A stretch of 47,081 nt of DNA. Origin: Halococcus hamelinensis 100A6 (GTDB lineage Archaea > Halobacteriota > Halobacteria > Halobacteriales > Halococcaceae). The notes beneath the pieces are model-generated. The model ran no database searches. It saw only the letters and a program-made list of their open reading frames with translations, and was not told the origin of the DNA. Within the stretch, counting starts at the first letter, position 1; the number at the start of each line of letters is the position of its first letter. Below, one piece after another: positions 163-46,264 of this stretch. The stretch lies in the NCBI RefSeq assembly GCF_000336675.1, contig NZ_AOMB01000037.1, positions 1 to 47,081 of the forward strand, read 5' to 3'. The position numbers and the translations under genes were made by a program.

Positions 163-505
163 CTAGTTCCCTTTGAACCGTGCAGGCGGGGAGTTTTCGG
201 ATGACCCAGAAGACCTGCTGTCGGCACCGGTAGTTACTATTCCAGCCTCGATCCCGTTGACCACGAGTACAACGGATTCGTTTCGGAGTGGCTGCCCGCT
301 CGTTGTGAGTCGGCCTGCAACGCTGACAACCAGGGCACTCACGTTCGAGCCGTTGACCGAGACCTGTGAGGGGCTGAGGGAGAGCGATGTCGGTGTCGAT
401 CGAACGGTGACCGGCAGTGACGTATTGACTTGATCAAGGGGGTCCTGAAGCGAAGCGAGACGCCAACAGTCTGGCCGGTGTCCACAGTCTTCGGGAGGCT
501 ACGGA
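163..505 (-). pseudogene. Decayed remnant of an Ig-like-repeat surface protein
   Basis: The minus strand is open from about 505 down to TAG at 163-165 but has no start codon. The reading is rich in Thr, Ser and Val (for example STPTSLSLSPSQVSVNGSN and ESVVLVVNG), the texture of bacterial-type Ig-like beta-sandwich repeats in haloarchaeal surface proteins. Just upstream, protein-like stretches (TVQITSVGFP; TVDTGQTVGVSLRF) continue in other frames, each ended by a stop. This suggests two or more frameshifts in one old gene. The plus-strand reading at 173-433 is the antisense of this stretch. The family assignment is by texture only. Confidence 0.35.
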
Positions 506-574
506 AACCCAACGGAGGTTATCTGTACAGTACGAGAGTAGGTCGAGTCCGACGTCGGCACCAGCTACAGAGAC

Positions 575-1066
575 CTAATCGAAAAGCTCGTTCTGCTCGC
601 TATATTCGCCTTCCGAGAGGCTCTCATCCTGGGCATTGTACTGCGGACCGAAAGCATCCCTTTCATCCTCCCAGTCGACGTAGTAGACGGTCAGCGTGCC
701 GGCAACGATATCTCCCAGATCGTCAAGTTCGGATTCAACCACATTGGCCTGCTCGATCGAGTCGAGATCTGGATGAATCTCCCGTTCGAGCCAATCTTCA
801 GGGAGTTCCGGTGCACGGTAATCGACCACCCCGGCTTCGTCGTCCCACATGAACTCGAAGTCAGCGAACAGATCGAGCTCGCGGGCGATCGCATATTCCT
901 GTTCGCTAAGTCCGGTATCGAGGGCCCACTGGTTGAACGCATCTTCCCACGCTCCCTGTTCGAGGTACTCGAAGAGGTCCCGATGGCGGTAGCGATCCGC
1001 CTCGTATGTGTCTCCATCTTCAACTGACGGTGCTGGCGGTGTGGGTGGTTCGATATCACGAGACAT
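575..1066 (-). CDS. Acidic hypothetical protein, 163 aa
   Basis: No family is recognised. The product is very rich in Asp and Glu, has no membrane segment or signal peptide, and contains several tryptophans in amphipathic stretches (FEYLEQGAWEDAFNQW; DFEFMWDDEAG; TVYYVDWEDE), so a folded cytosolic haloarchaeal protein is likely. The start at 1066 (MSRDIEP) is preferred over an in-frame ATG 12 codons upstream because a TATA-like box lies at 1089-1094. That spacing gives a leaderless message starting at or next to this ATG. It stands alone between a decayed surface-protein gene and a 277-nt gap in which I see no gene. Confidence 0.6.
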   Translation of the reverse strand: MSRDIEPPTPPAPSVEDGDTYEADRYRHRDLFEYLEQGAWEDAFNQWALDTGLSEQEYAIARELDLFADFEFMWDDEAGVVDYRAPELPEDWLEREIHPDLDSIEQANVVESELDDLGDIVAGTLTVYYVDWEDERDAFGPQYNAQDESLSEGEYSEQNELFD

Positions 1067-38616: not shown

Positions 38617-39084
38617 ATGCCTGAGGTTGTCCCAAGCGAACATAGACATGATCTGTCGTCGCTTACTGATGAGGAACGGATATTGTCGATTGGGTCGGAC
38701 CGCCCAATCCGTATCAGTACTGGGCATCGGTTACTCCATCATCAAGGGAAGTGCAGTCGACCACATGGGCACAACTACGAGATCGCAGTCGAGGTAACTG
38801 GTAAATTGAGGGAAGAAGGCTGGGTCGTGGACAAAGGTGCTGTGACCGATATTGTTGACGAATGGGACCATCAATTCCTTCTCCAACGGGGTGATCCACT
38901 TATCGAGGCGTTCGAGCAGAGCGGAGACGGAGATGCTACTGTAGTTCTTGATCATCCTCCGACAGCTGAGGTGATGGGCATCATTCTTGAAGACCGGTTA
39001 GAGGAACGATTACCGAATTCGGTCACTGACATAGCAGTGGAAGTGAGTGAAACGAGTGAACTTCGGACACAGCCTTTGAGATAA
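38617..39084 (+). CDS. queD: 6-carboxy-5,6,7,8-tetrahydropterin synthase
   Basis: The product is 155 aa, a member of the 6-pyruvoyl-tetrahydropterin synthase fold. The zinc ligands H37 (TGHRLLHH), H50 and H52 (CSRPHGHNYE) and the catalytic C46 are present. VVDKGAVTDIVDEWDHQFLL matches the conserved second half, and PPTAEVMGIILEDRLEE the last catalytic acid block. It converts dihydroneopterin triphosphate to 6-carboxytetrahydropterin, the second step towards preQ0 and hence archaeosine in tRNA or 7-deazaguanine in DNA. One base separates it from queE, so the two are cotranscribed. QueC, needed for preQ0, is not in the window. Confidence 0.85.
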   Translation: MPEVVPSEHRHDLSSLTDEERILSIGSDRPIRISTGHRLLHHQGKCSRPHGHNYEIAVEVTGKLREEGWVVDKGAVTDIVDEWDHQFLLQRGDPLIEAFEQSGDGDATVVLDHPPTAEVMGIILEDRLEERLPNSVTDIAVEVSETSELRTQPLR

Positions 39085-39085
39085 C

Positions 39086-39865
39086 ATGCCTGTGAATTCA
39101 GAGGTCGACGTGAGTGAGAGTTCGCCGGACAGCTCCGAAACTGCGAGCTTTCCGATCAACGAGCTCTTCTATTCGATACAAGGAGAGGGGAAGCTTGCGG
39201 GTGTCCCATCCGTCTTCGTCCGAACAAGTGGCTGCAATCTCCGCTGTTGGTTCTGTGATTCCTACCACACCTCTTGGGAGCCGACGCATGCCTGGATGGA
39301 TGCTGAGGACATCATCGAAGAGGTATCCTCGTATAGTCAGGCAGCCCATATTGTGGTCACCGGAGGAGAGCCTCTTATCCACGATGAATTAGGTAAACTC
39401 ATCAATGCTCTCGACAGCGAGGGATATCACACCACAGTCGAAACGAACGGAACGATATACCGAGATACGTCGATCGGCCTTGCGAGCATTAGTCCTAAAC
39501 TCGCCAGCAGTATACCTACGCCAGCAAGGGACCCCAAAGGCGATGGTGAGTGGGCCGAGAAGCACGAGCAGCAACGAACTGATATGACGGCGCTGACACG
39601 TCTCATCGAAGACTATCCCTTCCAGCTCAAATTTGTCGTTACTGACTCAACTGATATCGATGAGATAACTAATCTCGTCGAACGAGTTCGCCAACAAACG
39701 AGCGTTCGAGTACGGAATCAGGATATCCTGCTAATGCCAGAAGGGCAGACTGAAAATCAGATTGCGAAGAAACGTGAGGACGTCGCTGACCTGGCAATGG
39801 AGCACGGATATCGTTACACTCCACGTTTGCACGTCAATCTGTGGAACGATGAAGCGGGTCGGTAG
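39086..39865 (+). CDS. queE: 7-carboxy-7-deazaguanine synthase (radical SAM)
   Basis: The product is 259 aa with the radical-SAM cluster motif C50-x3-C54-x2-C57 (CNLRCWFC), preceded by FYSIQGEGKLAGVPSVFVRT, the substrate and Mg site of QueE. VTGGEPLIHD provides the SAM-binding GGEP and ETNG follows. The C-terminal ILLMPEGQTENQI is typical. It rearranges 6-carboxytetrahydropterin to 7-carboxy-7-deazaguanine, the step after QueD. The start at 39086 has a polar 20-residue N-terminal extension. It closes the RHH-queD-queE operon. The nearby methylase-nuclease locus raises the possibility that the product modifies DNA rather than tRNA, but no DpdA-like transglycosylase is seen. Confidence 0.88.
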   Translation: MPVNSEVDVSESSPDSSETASFPINELFYSIQGEGKLAGVPSVFVRTSGCNLRCWFCDSYHTSWEPTHAWMDAEDIIEEVSSYSQAAHIVVTGGEPLIHDELGKLINALDSEGYHTTVETNGTIYRDTSIGLASISPKLASSIPTPARDPKGDGEWAEKHEQQRTDMTALTRLIEDYPFQLKFVVTDSTDIDEITNLVERVRQQTSVRVRNQDILLMPEGQTENQIAKKREDVADLAMEHGYRYTPRLHVNLWNDEAGR

Positions 39866-40442: not shown

Positions 40443-41093
40443 TTAGCGCGTCCATGAAAGGTACAATCTACCCATGTCAGTCAGGTATACCCGTTTACTC
40501 CGACCATCGGTTTCCGTTTCTAGCAGGCCTTGTTCATCCAATCTATTGACATGGTAGCTGATTTTTTGGGCTGCTTCTTTAAGTTCTTCTCCGATATCTC
40601 GATAGAGAACTCCTGTACGGCCTTCTTTGTCCCACCTACCAACAGTCGTTAACACATTTCGTTGAAGTCCCTCAACCTCGAAGGTAAGGGGCTGTTTCGG
40701 TGTTGGAAGTTCTAACACAAGATCATCAATCGGTTCCTCACCGGTCTGAGGTTCTAGTACATAATACGGCGTCGCACCTACAAAGAAAGATGATGATGTC
40801 GCACCTCCTGCGACGAGGTTGGTTCCCCCAGTAATGTTGATATACATCGTTGCCTGGGGATTGTTCTTTGCGATATCGACAATTGGATCTACTACATCAC
40901 GAAGATCAAAGGCGTTGATCGTCCGTCGATGGACATCATATCCGAACCGATCAAGCTCAGTTGCTAAGTCGTTCCCTGTATCAAGGAAGGCATCACTTGT
41001 GAGGAGATACACTGTCTCGACGCTCCCAAACGCTCGGAGACCACGGTGAATATGCTCAATCGCCCGTCCGTGCGGAACAATATGTGTACTCAT
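40443..41093 (-). CDS. CARF-winged-helix protein (HFX_2341 / DUF6293-like)
   Basis: The product is 216 aa. Residues 1-130 form a Rossmann-like CARF domain, with the ligand-loop signature NITGGTNLVAGGA (86-98) and a hydrophobic core (VETVYLLTSD; ATPYYVLEP). Residues 150-216 are a winged helix (EELKEAAQKISYHVNRLDEQ; wing SKRVYLTDMGRLYL). CARF domains sense cyclic oligoadenylates or related second messengers, mostly in type III CRISPR and allied defence. No CRISPR array or cas gene is in the window. It is the last gene of a minus-strand operon, and its ATG overlaps the stop of the unknown 260-aa protein by 4 bp. It probably regulates the operon or switches it in response to a nucleotide signal (inference). 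Confidence 0.8.
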   Translation of the reverse strand: MSTHIVPHGRAIEHIHRGLRAFGSVETVYLLTSDAFLDTGNDLATELDRFGYDVHRRTINAFDLRDVVDPIVDIAKNNPQATMYINITGGTNLVAGGATSSSFFVGATPYYVLEPQTGEEPIDDLVLELPTPKQPLTFEVEGLQRNVLTTVGRWDKEGRTGVLYRDIGEELKEAAQKISYHVNRLDEQGLLETETDGRSKRVYLTDMGRLYLSWTR

Positions 41094-41872
41094 GGAGCAT
41101 ACAGTTCAACGTCTTCTGCCGGGTCGCTACTTGGTTTTTCGGCTGGGCGAACTTTGACGATATCTCCTTCCGAGGGGAAGAAGGCAAGAGGTGCCTTGAA
41201 CTTCGTCCGGTATCCGAGTTCCGCTTCTGAGTATGTCGTTATTTTCCCTTCCATCCTATCATCGTAAATGACGTCTATGAACCCGACTTCGTGGTCTTCC
41301 TCCCCAAGCAATTCACCCCCTTTCATAAACTGCGTGAAATCCCCAATCTCCAGAATTCGCAACCAAACCTCCAAGATTTGCTCCAGGACTTTCCAAATCA
41401 AATTCAGCATGCTCGTTAACACTGGGTCGGGTTGTCCAGGAGATACTGGTGGTCCTTCCTCGCCAGCGTGCTCTTGATCATCACGGTACTTTTTGAATGA
41501 CCCAAGGGCGAACTCTTCCTCAAATTCAATCTGTTCTTCTAGATAGACGCTTGCATATAGGCGGAACCATCGAACTAGGTTCACGAGGTTGTCACTGTGT
41601 CTATCGGGTTTGAATTCGAGTTTATCGTAGAATCCCTGCTGACGGATACTTGCTCCGACAATTTGCTTTATGTTCGAATACAGTGATTGTCCGACAGAAC
41701 TGTTGCTTGTTGAAGCGCGTGTGAGTTCTACAGCCGAAGTAAATGCGTTTTCAAAATCCTCTCTAATTGGTCCCTCTTCTAGTTCGTCAATTATGATTGT
41801 CTCTGCGATCTCCCTGGTATCTTCGATTTGTTCGTCAAGTAGTTGACTTGGTGTATAAGTATCGAACACCAT
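41090..41872 (-). CDS. Unknown 260-aa protein in the CARF/RM-fusion operon
   Basis: No family is recognised. The N-terminal 150 residues are acidic and helical (DEQIEDTREIAETIIIDELE; FYDKLEFKPDRHSDNLVNLV; WFRLYASVYLEEQIEFEEEF). A Pro/Gly-rich linker follows. A strongly hydrophobic amphipathic helix comes next (PVLTSMLNLIWKVLEQILEV, about residues 150-170), then a C-terminal beta-rich part (HEVGFIDVIYDDRMEGKITT; LGYRTKFKAPLAFFPSEGDI) that looks like an OB or SH3-like barrel. It starts two bases after the stop of the methylase fusion and overlaps the CARF gene. The amphipathic helix could contact a membrane or a partner. It could be a DNA-binding or effector subunit. Confidence 0.6.
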   Translation of the reverse strand: MVFDTYTPSQLLDEQIEDTREIAETIIIDELEEGPIREDFENAFTSAVELTRASTSNSSVGQSLYSNIKQIVGASIRQQGFYDKLEFKPDRHSDNLVNLVRWFRLYASVYLEEQIEFEEEFALGSFKKYRDDQEHAGEEGPPVSPGQPDPVLTSMLNLIWKVLEQILEVWLRILEIGDFTQFMKGGELLGEEDHEVGFIDVIYDDRMEGKITTYSEAELGYRTKFKAPLAFFPSEGDIVKVRPAEKPSSDPAEDVELYAP

Positions 41873-41874
41873 GT

Positions 41875-43875
41875 TTACACCCCCTTTGAGAAATCCGGTA
41901 CTGGAAGGTTATGTAATGCACTTATCGTGATGTATCTTATCGCACTCCCGGTTCGATTTGCCTCCAAAATATCATTCCCTAACTTTGATTCGAAGAACGA
42001 CTGATACAGGTCCGCCCGCTGATCAGAGTCAAACTTGACTACAGCCCACCGAGAGGAGGGGATGACATCACGATCGATTCGACGGACAACCGTGCCTCCA
42101 CCCTTAACGGATATCAGAACGTCTGTTGGAGTTGCGATCGTAGATACGTCATCGGGAGAACGGAGAGACAAATCTTCGATTTCAATGTCACGAGTTGTGT
42201 CGAGGTATGGTAGTCCGGAGTCTGCTTGTTCTGGTTCCCTCGTTGTCCCTGACTCAATTATCGCAACCTCTCCTAACTTTGTGATAGCATCATACTGTCT
42301 ATAGAGTTCGTCTACAACGTCTCGCTCGCCCTGTATCTGAGATGGGAGAAGTGTTCGGACCTCTCTAGGGTCAATTTCAATTACGTCCGCATGTCCACTA
42401 TCAACCACCTCAATCGCAGTGGCGATGTCGTTCGGTCCGTCGTGCTCTGGCTCAGGAGAGACCTCTGCTGTTGCAATCGCTTGATGCGATGGTGATCGTG
42501 AGTTGCGGATCCGAATGATAGCTCCCCGGAAGCTGACATCAGAAAACACCGCACCGCCAAACGTGATGATAGCCTCAATTGTTGCTTGCTGAAGAAGATG
42601 ATCCCGAAGCCCCTTCGATTGATCGCCCGCAAGAATGTATTCTGGAATGAGGGCAACCAGCGTGCCATTGTCATCTAGCAAAGAGAGTGCACGCGCCACA
42701 AACGCTTCCTCAATTCGAATTTGATTCCTTGAACTGTGAAACTCAGGGACACGGTCGGCAAAAACTCGCTCACCTATTGGGGGATTCAAGACGATCCGGT
42801 CGAATAGGCTGACCGAGTTGACACGATGGGTATGCGATGTCTTATCCGTGCTGTACGATCCCAAAGCCAGACTGGAGTCTGAGTCAGGTTGACTTTGCGA
42901 ACTCCACTCAAAGAAGTCAGCACAGACACTCTCAATCGCGTCATCTTGTTGCCCGAGCTCGTTAAGAAATGCCGCAATGATTACAGCAGTTTCGTTGATT
43001 TCTACACCGGTAGCACTCGCCCCACGAGTAGCGAGCTCACGGCATAGAACTCCAAAACCGCTAGCGGGGTCAAGCACTCGATCCTCTGGTTCAACTCCTG
43101 CAAAGTCTACCATAGGGCGAGAGACTTTCCGCGAGAGCTGCTCAGCCCCGAGCTCCGTGTGACCTGCAAGTTCGTCAAAAAATCCTGATGCTACGTCTGC
43201 AGATGTCTTCGATAGCTCGAAACTACCGAAATAACTGAGCGTTGTTCGAACTGTTTCTAAGTCATGTGGCACTATGTCGACGGGCTCGAGTGCGGTATAA
43301 TGTGACTTGAGAGGGTCCTCAAGTTGCACCAACTGATTCTCGAGGTTGTTAGAGTGATCAAGTTGAACACTGTCTCTCTCGGCGGTCAATTGGTATAAGA
43401 GGGCCAGAAAAACGTCAGATTTCAAATTAGACTCATAGCTGTGTTGCTCATGCGCTCCGAGGTCTTCCAGCAATAGACGTAGTAAGAATCTAACTTCGAC
43501 AACGGAGTCAAGAGGCCGATTACTGCTATTTGTCTGGATTCCCGGGAACGAAGGAAGAATTGTCGGTTCTTGATCAGAAGGACTGAAGCTAAAAATGTAG
43601 TCAAGAGCTGGTGTTATCACTGCTCCATACTGTGACCCGCTCTCACGGATGTATTCAAACAGCTCCTCTCGTCCGCTTCGGAACCGCTCATTACTCTCCT
43701 TACCAGATTTTACCTCAACAACCAGAAATATATTATTCTGGTCAGTGGTTTCATAGACAACTAAATCTGGTCTGAGCCTTGTACCAGCGAGTGAATGCCC
43801 CACTCCGATGCGTTCGGAACCATAGAGGTCAGCAAGTCTTTGTCTGACCTCTACAACGAATTCAGCTTCTTTCAC
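41875..43875 (-). CDS. Single-chain nuclease-methylase-specificity (RMS) fusion
   Basis: The product is 666 aa from GTG 43875. Residues 1-60 carry a PD-(D/E)XK-like core: D37 in RPDLVV and E54-V-K56 in FLVVEVKSGK. Around 265-366 is an N6-adenine methylase with the SAM loop LDPASGFGVL and the catalytic block LNPPIGERV. The fourth residue is Ile instead of the usual Phe/Tyr of N/D-P-P-F/Y. The last 190 residues resemble a type I specificity (HsdS) recognition unit (AIIESGTTREPEQADSGLPY; TDVLISVKGGGTVVRRIDRD; TGSAIRYITISALHNLPVPD). The order nuclease-methylase-specificity on one chain is type IIG/BcgI-like, with no helicase. It heads an operon with the unknown protein and the CARF regulator. Confidence 0.8.
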   Translation of the reverse strand: MKEAEFVVEVRQRLADLYGSERIGVGHSLAGTRLRPDLVVYETTDQNNIFLVVEVKSGKESNERFRSGREELFEYIRESGSQYGAVITPALDYIFSFSPSDQEPTILPSFPGIQTNSSNRPLDSVVEVRFLLRLLLEDLGAHEQHSYESNLKSDVFLALLYQLTAERDSVQLDHSNNLENQLVQLEDPLKSHYTALEPVDIVPHDLETVRTTLSYFGSFELSKTSADVASGFFDELAGHTELGAEQLSRKVSRPMVDFAGVEPEDRVLDPASGFGVLCRELATRGASATGVEINETAVIIAAFLNELGQQDDAIESVCADFFEWSSQSQPDSDSSLALGSYSTDKTSHTHRVNSVSLFDRIVLNPPIGERVFADRVPEFHSSRNQIRIEEAFVARALSLLDDNGTLVALIPEYILAGDQSKGLRDHLLQQATIEAIITFGGAVFSDVSFRGAIIRIRNSRSPSHQAIATAEVSPEPEHDGPNDIATAIEVVDSGHADVIEIDPREVRTLLPSQIQGERDVVDELYRQYDAITKLGEVAIIESGTTREPEQADSGLPYLDTTRDIEIEDLSLRSPDDVSTIATPTDVLISVKGGGTVVRRIDRDVIPSSRWAVVKFDSDQRADLYQSFFESKLGNDILEANRTGSAIRYITISALHNLPVPDFSKGV

Positions 43876-43981
43876 TGCTAATGACTGCGATGGAGAGGAA
43901 CTAATACTTTATCTTGGACAATCCAATCTCCGTTTTTACATTCATTTTGGTTGAATAGTTGGTTACTAGGGTACTGTCTAG

Positions 43982-45513: not shown

Positions 45514-45876
45514 ATGAGCGGGAAGGCCGCACGTAAGCCACTATCTGCCGACGCCCATACGGACGCAGCGGCGGCCTTTGGCAAACGCGCACGGTCTAAA
45601 CACGGCACCGACATAATCGATCTGTACGTATTTGGTTCAACTGTTCGTGGTGAAGCCCACGGACGATCGAGTGATGTTGATGTCCTAGTTGTCGTCGAGG
45701 AGAACGACCGGCGTGCTCTTGAGGAATCGCTTCGCGATATCGCCCTCGATGTGATGCTCGAATATGGCCCAGCAATCGAGTTACATATCCTCTCGGAGAC
45801 CGCATTCGAGCGCCATCAACGGGAACAGAACCCCTTCATCCAGAACGTTCTCTCTGAGGGGCAGTCGTATGGTTGA
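45514..45876 (+). CDS. Minimal nucleotidyltransferase (MNT), antitoxin-type
   Basis: The product is 120 aa with the polymerase-beta fold signature FGSTVRGEAHGRSSDVDVLV: G41-S42 and metal aspartates D54 and D56. A third Asp or Glu is expected near residue 90 (AIELHIL). In MNT-HEPN pairs this enzyme adds nucleotides to a Tyr or Arg region of the HEPN toxin and neutralises it. Its stop overlaps the HEPN start by 8 bp, the standard arrangement. The start ATG follows the TATA-like box at 45478-45486. There is no transmembrane segment. Confidence 0.8.
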   Translation: MSGKAARKPLSADAHTDAAAAFGKRARSKHGTDIIDLYVFGSTVRGEAHGRSSDVDVLVVVEENDRRALEESLRDIALDVMLEYGPAIELHILSETAFERHQREQNPFIQNVLSEGQSYG

Positions 45877-46264
45877 TGACGACAGAGACGCTGCTGTCGA
45901 CCGAGAAATTCAGCAAGCCCAGCAGGCACTCGACGATGCTGCCAAAGCTCAAGATGCTGAGCTCTCAGACGCGGCAGTGATAAACCGACTCTATTATGCC
46001 GCGTTTCACTCCGTTCAGGCCGTTCTCTATGCCCGTGAATTCGACCCCTCATCTCATGGAGGAGTTCTTTCACTCTTCGGCTCAGAGGTTATCGCCGTCG
46101 GTGACGCTTCTCGGGACGATGGTCGATTCTTCAGCCAACTCTCGGAACTTCGCCAACAAGCCGACTACGGGTACGATGAACTTGATGAGAACGTTGGCGC
46201 TCTCTACTCCCGAACACAGAAGCTCGTTACCAAGATGGAATCCCTCTGCACCCCCGCTGAGTAA
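45869..46264 (+). CDS. HEPN-domain protein, toxin-type
   Basis: The product is 131 aa from ATG 45869 (MVDDDRDAAVDREIQQAQQA). The HEPN four-helix pattern includes the motif R40-LYYAAF-H47 (R-x6-H), the putative RNase site of HEPN toxins. A Tyr pair just after the Arg is the likely AMPylation area. The C-terminal helices (RFFSQLSELRQQADYGYDEL; LYSRTQKLVTKMESL) complete the fold. The start is chosen because it overlaps the MNT stop by 8 bp; the longer open frame is antitoxin-shadow sequence. The pair is a toxin-antitoxin or abortive-infection-like module, which is common in haloarchaea. Confidence 0.8.
   Translation: MVDDDRDAAVDREIQQAQQALDDAAKAQDAELSDAAVINRLYYAAFHSVQAVLYAREFDPSSHGGVLSLFGSEVIAVGDASRDDGRFFSQLSELRQQADYGYDELDENVGALYSRTQKLVTKMESLCTPAE

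Follow-up and report, generated by a model that had tools for sequence, protein, structure and literature searches.

Three adjoining minus-strand genes in a 47,081-nt contig of Halococcus hamelinensis 100A6 (NZ_AOMB01000037.1; "the window" below is this whole stretch) raise the question of why a CARF protein should be encoded in one operon with a single-chain restriction-modification (RM) enzyme and a protein of no assigned family. The first gene encodes a fused restriction-modification-specificity protein (RMS), the second a 260-aa protein (here Y) and the third a CARF-winged-helix protein, and the open reading frame (ORF) coordinates bear out the 2-nt gap and the 4-bp overlap given in the initial annotation. 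That annotation had proposed a cyclic-oligoadenylate sensor wired to restriction or, more plainly, a CARF protein that only regulates an RM gene. The answer reached here, to which we give somewhat better than even chances, is an RM-linked back-up module similar to PrrC, in which a predicted HEPN ribonuclease stands under CARF control. It would probably give the cell a further layer of antiviral defence, in addition to ordinary restriction.

The three genes form a conserved unit. An even sample of the class, 391 genomes in all, has gene 2 in 10 genomes, the RMS in 12 (only the 3 best candidates per genome were scored) and the close CARF clade in 9 (matches at E <= 2e-83; weaker CARF matches raise the genome count to 63). 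An RMS gene adjoins gene 2 in all 10 genomes and a close CARF gene is also present in 9 of them, which is more than chance would give. Full-length RMS genes are found in 11 class genomes, always with gene 2 beside them, while the 12th (G226) is truncated, with no Y and no CARF seen. Two copies lack CARF: G002 has RMS and Y, and in G383 the RMS stands with a Y that has diverged further (21% identity) and was picked up by clustering. All three genes also occur in Natrinema zhouii, Salinibaculum litoreum and Halovenus salina, from a second collection of named genomes. The protein distances of genes 1-3 correlate across 12 loci (Mantel tests: 1, 2 and 21 of 5000 permutations as high), at mean pairwise identities of 69% for CARF, 37% for RMS and 39% for Y. 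The copy in G043 is homologous to the window at the DNA level, and a comparison of 36000-55999 of the window with 20 kb around that copy gave no further blastn match beyond 40450-43944.

Among distant relatives this association loosens. The far bacterial R-M fusions (~24% identity) have no Y or CARF profile match in four fetched plasmid regions, and of 11 CARF relatives with 24-37% identity, 9 lack an RMS-like gene in the fetched flanks. The conditions that the initial annotation set for chance adjacency, a widespread RMS without the other two genes or CARF beside unrelated genes, were nevertheless mostly not borne out. A scan of genome contigs with the CARF alignment gave 17 loci, from which L069, L070 and L072 were dropped before counting as the same places, by coordinates, as L062, L057 and L063; the RMS as sole query against the genome contigs gave no match. 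Plasmids gave no match to Y or to the L059 RMS and one weak match to CARF (27%), and viral contigs contained no CARF or Y relative. The Methanomassiliicoccus RMS was found in 1/160 genomes of its class, its own.

The identity of the second gene product is central to this reading. Searches of Pfam, NCBIfam and PADLOC gave it no significant match, in agreement with its first description as an unknown protein, and the sub-threshold Pfam matches seen for it and for related proteins (Caprin, UbiD, YicC and similar) were set aside as chance. An AlphaFold2 model built with 11 relatives, with a predicted local distance difference test (pLDDT) score of 84, has a helical bundle and a C-terminal barrel, and the fold search lists HEPN and cold-shock entries. 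In VIA-align, residues ~30-180 match HEPN entries at Z 5.6-6.7, SO_3166-SO_3165 among them, including sacsin (3o10, Z 6.7), MntA-HepT (6m6w, 6.7) and AF_0298 (2hsb, 6.6). The match to the HEPN(R102A) toxin 7ae8 (Z 6.2) aligns 30-181 to 3-150, and R130 would fall near 7ae8 residue 102, an approximate position read from these ranges. The barrel, at residues 192-258, matches CspA at Z 6.6, with a root-mean-square deviation (rmsd) of 2.2 over 64 residues. The stronger HEPN sign is an Rx4-5H motif, within the Rx4-6H pattern of the family, which is present in 14/14 Y proteins and whose R130 is one of 11 invariant columns of 324 in the alignment; the protein encoded at the gene 2 place in Methanomassiliicoccus likewise carries RNCTEH. 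From motif and model, gene 2 probably encodes a HEPN RNase joined to a cold-shock-type barrel.

The third gene product is a CARF-winged-helix protein, as first described. It matches PF19810 (HFX_2341_N) and a winged helix in Pfam and CARF3 in PADLOC (E 6.7e-81), and has the Rossmann fold and the C-terminal winged helix-turn-helix (wHTH) of CARF superfamily regulators; their conserved motif after the fourth strand reads NITGGTN, invariant in 21/21 aligned CARFs. Its AlphaFold2 model (pLDDT 90) aligns with CARF domains of cyclic-oligoadenylate effectors (6sce, Csm6, Can2) at Z ~17, up to 17.5, and over its full length with Csa3 (2wte; Z 14.4, 197 aligned, rmsd 6.6). In Csa3, binding of cyclic tetraadenylate (cA4) is ascribed to motif 1, G9-F10-(N/D)11-x-x-F14, and motif 2, R98, and losing F10 and F14 is reported to abolish it (PMC8844856). 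With G9 and GG as sequence anchors, F10, N/D11, F14 and R98 correspond to R10, A11, H14 and N92 in the window CARF, and the cA4 residues of Csa3 are thus not conserved. Additionally, the Cas10 palm domain (PF22335) was found in 0/17 unit- or RMS-bearing genomes, 0/9 genomes with far CARFs and 2/391 class genomes; as a control, the same search was positive in 5/14 named genomes, E. coli among them. The genomes searched include several metagenome-assembled ones, and 12 of the 17 are at least 95% complete or nearly so (the genome of the window, 96.4%); these completeness figures cover 12/17 unit- or RMS-bearing and 0/9 far-CARF genomes. Because Cas10 is absent from all 17 genomes and the cA4-contact residues are missing, a cyclic oligoadenylate made by Cas10 is an unlikely signal, and the proposed wiring of such a messenger to restriction is not supported; a CARF ligand of another source is possible.

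Regulation of transcription is the better reading of the CARF protein, and an inverted repeat upstream of the RMS gene (consensus TCAAAAC-N3-GTTTTGA) is the evidence that supports its control of the unit. With leave-clade-out matrices, the repeat outscores every other site in the 200 bp upstream in 12/12 haloarchaeal CARF-bearing loci (10.8-21.1 against <=9.2 for the next best), and it lies at -62/-63 in 11 loci and at -67 in one; the window site scores 12.6 and the next best 1.8. The repeat tracks the CARF gene, being absent from the two loci with RMS and Y alone (L061 and L064, best scores 2.7 and 1.4). A 12/14 match lies between the RMS and a divergent CARF gene in Methanomassiliicoccus (L077), its far edge 64 nt before the RMS, and 18 of 20,000 single-base shuffles gave as good a match. 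The surroundings of the far CARF genes have no consistent site (best 11/14, L075). Across 11 whole genomes, 4 of the 5 sites with <=1 mismatch are the unit's promoter, as are 9 of the 36 sites with <=2 mismatches, a limit at which the reversed control has 15. Natrinema zhouii has a perfect site, G000 and G240 have sites with more than 2 mismatches, and that of the window, with 3, is of the weaker kind. When the spacer was left free, the best L056 site lay elsewhere, and the weight of the operator rests on the fixed spacer, the fixed position and the leave-clade-out scoring, the training sites of which were themselves chosen with the overall consensus. Gene 3 thus very probably regulates the operon, presumably by binding this repeat. 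Given the leaderless transcripts known from haloarchaea, the position of the operator beyond a TATA-like stretch from the start codon suggests activation rather than repression. The regulatory part of the plainer proposal is supported; that the regulated gene is merely an RM gene is not, as the operon includes a probable HEPN RNase.

Gene 1 is the nuclease-methylase-specificity fusion that had been described, although its parts are recognized with unequal clarity. Eco57I and N6_Mtase match above the Pfam cut-offs, and the C-terminus is weakly HsdS-like, residues 531-659 matching the type I specificity subunit of PADLOC at E 2e-4; the RMS family profile also matches HsdS-type chains (Esub1, HsdS 1yf2), and Methylase_S is matched in several relatives. 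The N-terminus of the window protein has weak Uma2/VRR_NUC matches only (E 0.03-0.07), while HSDR_N_2 is matched in the relatives L056 (3.5e-6), L077 (3.9e-13) and L064 (3.9e-5, just under the Pfam cut-off). The window RMS carries PD...EVK, following the PD...(D/E)xK pattern, the methylase motif I (LDPASGFG) and, at motif IV, NPPI in place of the usual (D/N/S)PP(Y/F/W) of N6-adenine methylases. Among 15 RMS proteins (14 aligned plus L077), the nuclease lysine is present in 5 and replaced by serine in 10. The 5 ExK proteins all have a non-aromatic fourth residue in motif IV (NPPI, NPPI, DPPI, DPPV, DPPL), and the 10 with ExS/NxS all carry DPPF/DPPY; none keeps both catalytic motifs in the usual form, and each keeps one of the two. 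This pattern was noticed post hoc and was rejected as strong covariation, since 2 changes on the tree (1-3 in bootstraps) suffice to explain it and it counts as one or two events. Nucleases of the BamHI/BglII type also lack the lysine, so its loss is no proof of a dead nuclease. Should the pattern be real, it would suggest that no RMS here is an ordinary self-sufficient RM enzyme and would favour a sensing or guarding role. The four far bacterial proteins have NPPF in 4/4 and, by eye, D...E-x-K without the P in 3/4; a search for the PD...ExK pattern matched 0/4.

Most relatives of the unit lie beside type I RM genes. Genomic context was compared for 17 loci, 16 with RMS and one from Firmicutes with an RMS-like protein, and in 12 of them the fetched flanks contain hsd genes (L056-L060, L062-L065, L073, L077, L083). 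These include an HsdM at the contig end in L057, an HsdR alone in L064, an R-like 740-aa ORF in L056 that was matched by BLAST clustering and not by the HsdR profile, and an HsdR in L077 that was matched by profile but not in the L059 protein search. The Methanomassiliicoccus locus (L077) has the order RMS, 202-aa protein, HsdR, HsdM, HsdS, and the Firmicutes locus (L083) has the RMS-like protein, without a recognised nuclease domain, a 233-aa protein and CARF. The G002 copy (L061 3925-17295) lies inside a BREX set, PglX - RMS - Y - PglZ - BrxHII, without CARF or operator. No hsd or BREX genes were seen in the fetched flanks of 4/17 loci, namely the window, G043 and the Natrinema zhouii and Salinibaculum loci (L068, L071).

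In the mechanism that we propose, the CARF-winged-helix protein would bind the inverted repeat that lies directly before the promoter and, on sensing a small nucleotide-like signal, would switch the operon along with its own gene; activation is more likely here than repression. The single-chain RMS protein would read the DNA sequence and its modification state and the HEPN-cold-shock protein would cut RNA. The RMS, often together with an adjoining type I RM system, would probably silence the HEPN protein for as long as restriction works, in the way that EcoprrI silences PrrC; once restriction fails, the freed HEPN protein would stop translation or kill the cell. The features concerned are listed in Table 1.

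Table 1. Features of the three-gene unit, in window coordinates unless residues are given.
Feature	Position	Strand	Description
Gene 1, RMS	41875..43875	minus	666 aa, GTG start
RMS domains	residues ~1-110; ~240-465; ~530-662		HsdR_N-like PD-(D/E)XK; N6-adenine methylase; single HsdS-type recognition domain
Gene 2, Y (HEPN-cold-shock, predicted)	41090..41872	minus	260 aa
Gene 2 domains	residues ~30-177; 192-259		predicted HEPN ribonuclease (R130-x4-H135); cold-shock/OB-type barrel (AlphaFold2, motif)
Gene 3, CARF-winged-helix	40443..41093	minus	216 aa; probable autoregulator of the operon
Putative CARF-wHTH operator	43922..43938	minus	TAAAAACGGAGATTGGA, 11/14 to consensus TCAAAACNNNGTTTTGA; far end 63 nt before RMS start
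Possible TATA-like element	43901..43910	minus	AAAGTATTAG, between operator and start codon; picked by eye from aligned promoters
DNA homology with G043	40450..43944	minus	73.9% over 3506 columns

Several observations weigh against the back-up module. The HEPN entries are equalled or outscored by unrelated helical bundles (CCM3 7.2, catenin 7.0, vinculin 6.7), so the fold alone does not settle the assignment, and Foldseek with the gene 2 model found no match at E <= 0.001. The 202-aa protein in the gene 2 place in Methanomassiliicoccus has no clear match to the Y profile (hhalign 20%); the 233-aa protein of the Firmicutes locus lacks the R and does not match Y, and that locus, with CARF present, has no good operator (best 9/14). 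L065, with a truncated RMS, has the operator, yet no CARF in the fetched 20 kb. Of 300 dinucleotide shuffles, 33 were as good as the window site, and 96, 251 and 23 as good as those of L057, L058 and L059. Lastly, hsd profiles match nothing on the contig of the window, and a search of the same genome with the L059 HsdR gave no match at 1e-8. The first of these points would also suit a plainly regulated RM system, in which CARF controls the RMS enzyme while the 260-aa protein has no RNase activity and serves as a helper, either structural or nucleic-acid-binding. The operator fits this account equally well, and motif-less HEPN domains (MtlR, for example) are regarded as non-catalytic (PMC3710099). 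It is less easily reconciled with the R and H kept in 14/14 relatives, most of them only 21-34% identical to the window protein, with the persistence of RMS and Y without CARF in L061 and L064, or with the lack of any RMS, among 15, that has both catalytic motifs in the usual form; we regard it as possible, but on balance rather unlikely.

Less credible again is an add-on to type I RM, in which the RMS lends its recognition domain and methylase to a neighbouring HsdR, thereby widening the targets, with CARF and Y in a tuning role. The hsd genes beside 12/17 loci and the 10/15 RMS proteins that lack the ExK lysine but carry DPPF/DPPY speak for this account, and the PD-(D/E)XK fragment HVO_A0006 has been suggested to work on a different RM system (PMC4389544). 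The window, G043, Natrinema zhouii and Salinibaculum loci, however, have no hsd match in their fetched flanks, the G002 copy sits in BREX, and 5/15 RMS proteins keep ExK. A defence island may also bring genes together by chance, and an MNT-HEPN pair does lie near the locus, but such an origin for the unit is extremely improbable and was refuted by the gene order and operator kept across genera, the G043 DNA homology that ends at the unit edges and the correlated protein distances. A more elaborate form of the back-up module is a Cas10-independent, self-amplifying circuit in which CARF would sense the RNA ends left by its own HEPN partner, for example 2',3'-cyclic-phosphate ends, and the RMS would be the modification sensor that locks the HEPN protein, a role suggested by the retention of a single usual catalytic motif in every one of the 15 RMS proteins. 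RNA fragments with 2',3'-cyclic phosphates have been put forward as the signal of RtcR-type CARF regulators (PMC11090510); we view the circuit as a doubtful, speculative extension.

Both halves of the unit have counterparts. PrrC, silenced by EcoprrI and acting when restriction is blocked, is presented as a tested case of an RM-linked HEPN protein, and at least 16 HEPN clades are given as linked to RM (PMC3710099), while HEPN back-up effectors are catalogued in BREX (PMC12839542). The unit resembles PrrC/EcoprrI in that a HEPN-type effector is encoded with RM genes; it differs in the fusion of the predicted HEPN to a cold-shock-type domain, the single-chain RMS partner and the added CARF-wHTH regulator, and no ABC ATPase match was found in Y of the window or of four relatives. 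Superoperons of CARF, type I RM and CoCoNuT with HEPN and cold-shock domains have been described (PMC11090510). The CoCoNuT systems (McrBC-type, with predicted RNA targeting) share with the present loci HEPN and cold-shock domains (here predicted), CARF and type I RM in one region, and some far CARF relatives lie beside an Hsp70-like gene or SF1 helicases. Conversely, the three genes of the unit include no McrB/McrC type (no McrB/McrC search was made, and most flanking ORFs are unannotated), and its CARF-wHTH protein has no AAA domain of the RtcR-like regulators. Csa3 and HFX_2341 regulators share CARF, the winged helix and, for Csa3, a full-length structural match, but the cA4-motif residues are replaced here and the genomes searched lack Cas10. 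The best PADLOC match of gene 1 is the Mad2 methylase of MADS (E 3.3e-24), although NCBIfam MAD2 scores only 22 bits against a cut-off of 720. Type IIG-like enzymes and bacterial HsdR_N-HsdM fusions likewise have nuclease and methylase in one chain, with ~24% identity to the Methanomassiliicoccus RMS; the bacterial fusions differ in that the four plasmid regions fetched match neither the Y nor the CARF profile. Each on its own, RM-linked HEPNs and CARF regulators are known, and this unit combines both compactly; no description of a HEPN, RMS and CARF operon turned up in the literature searched.

CARF domains have been studied mainly as receptors of cyclic oligoadenylates made by Cas10. The unit offers a conserved CARF regulator, a precise candidate operator and a probable RNase operon in archaea where Cas10 was not found, and with a predicted promoter, a 17-bp candidate site and three genes it makes CARF sensing outside type III CRISPR directly testable, in genera such as Natrinema and Halorubrum. 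It would also add an archaeal case to the idea of restriction systems with RNA-cutting suicide back-ups.

Further observations concern the neighbourhoods. In the window, overlapping PF01909 nucleotidyltransferase and PF05168 HEPN genes at 45514-46264 form a MntA/HepT-type toxin-antitoxin pair, and an accessory-type queD-queE pair lies at 38617-39865. QueE matches at E <= 1e-40 occur in 8/21 genomes (own included), a second QueE copy (70%) lies elsewhere in the same genome, and queD-queE has no wider synteny in four stretches compared; a search for an empty insertion site via queE relatives matched only queD-queE and found none. Divergent TATA-binding-protein genes adjoin RM islands in L059 (7329-7859, 17466-18014), L062, L056, L065 and L073, on both sides in L059 and L062, and are possibly dedicated island transcription factors. 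The far CARF-wHTH loci are perhaps other CARF-linked defence operons: L074 has an Hsp70-like gene and a HEPN_Swt1-SF1 helicase, L075, L081 and L084 an SF1 helicase, L075 and L081 a PLD nuclease nearby, and L076 and L082 weak GrpE-like matches only. Directly after the G043 copy, at 11936-17259 of L055, lie a phage-integrase-family gene and a gene for a 1526-aa protein with sub-threshold AAA matches and a PDC-M54A match over 147-310.

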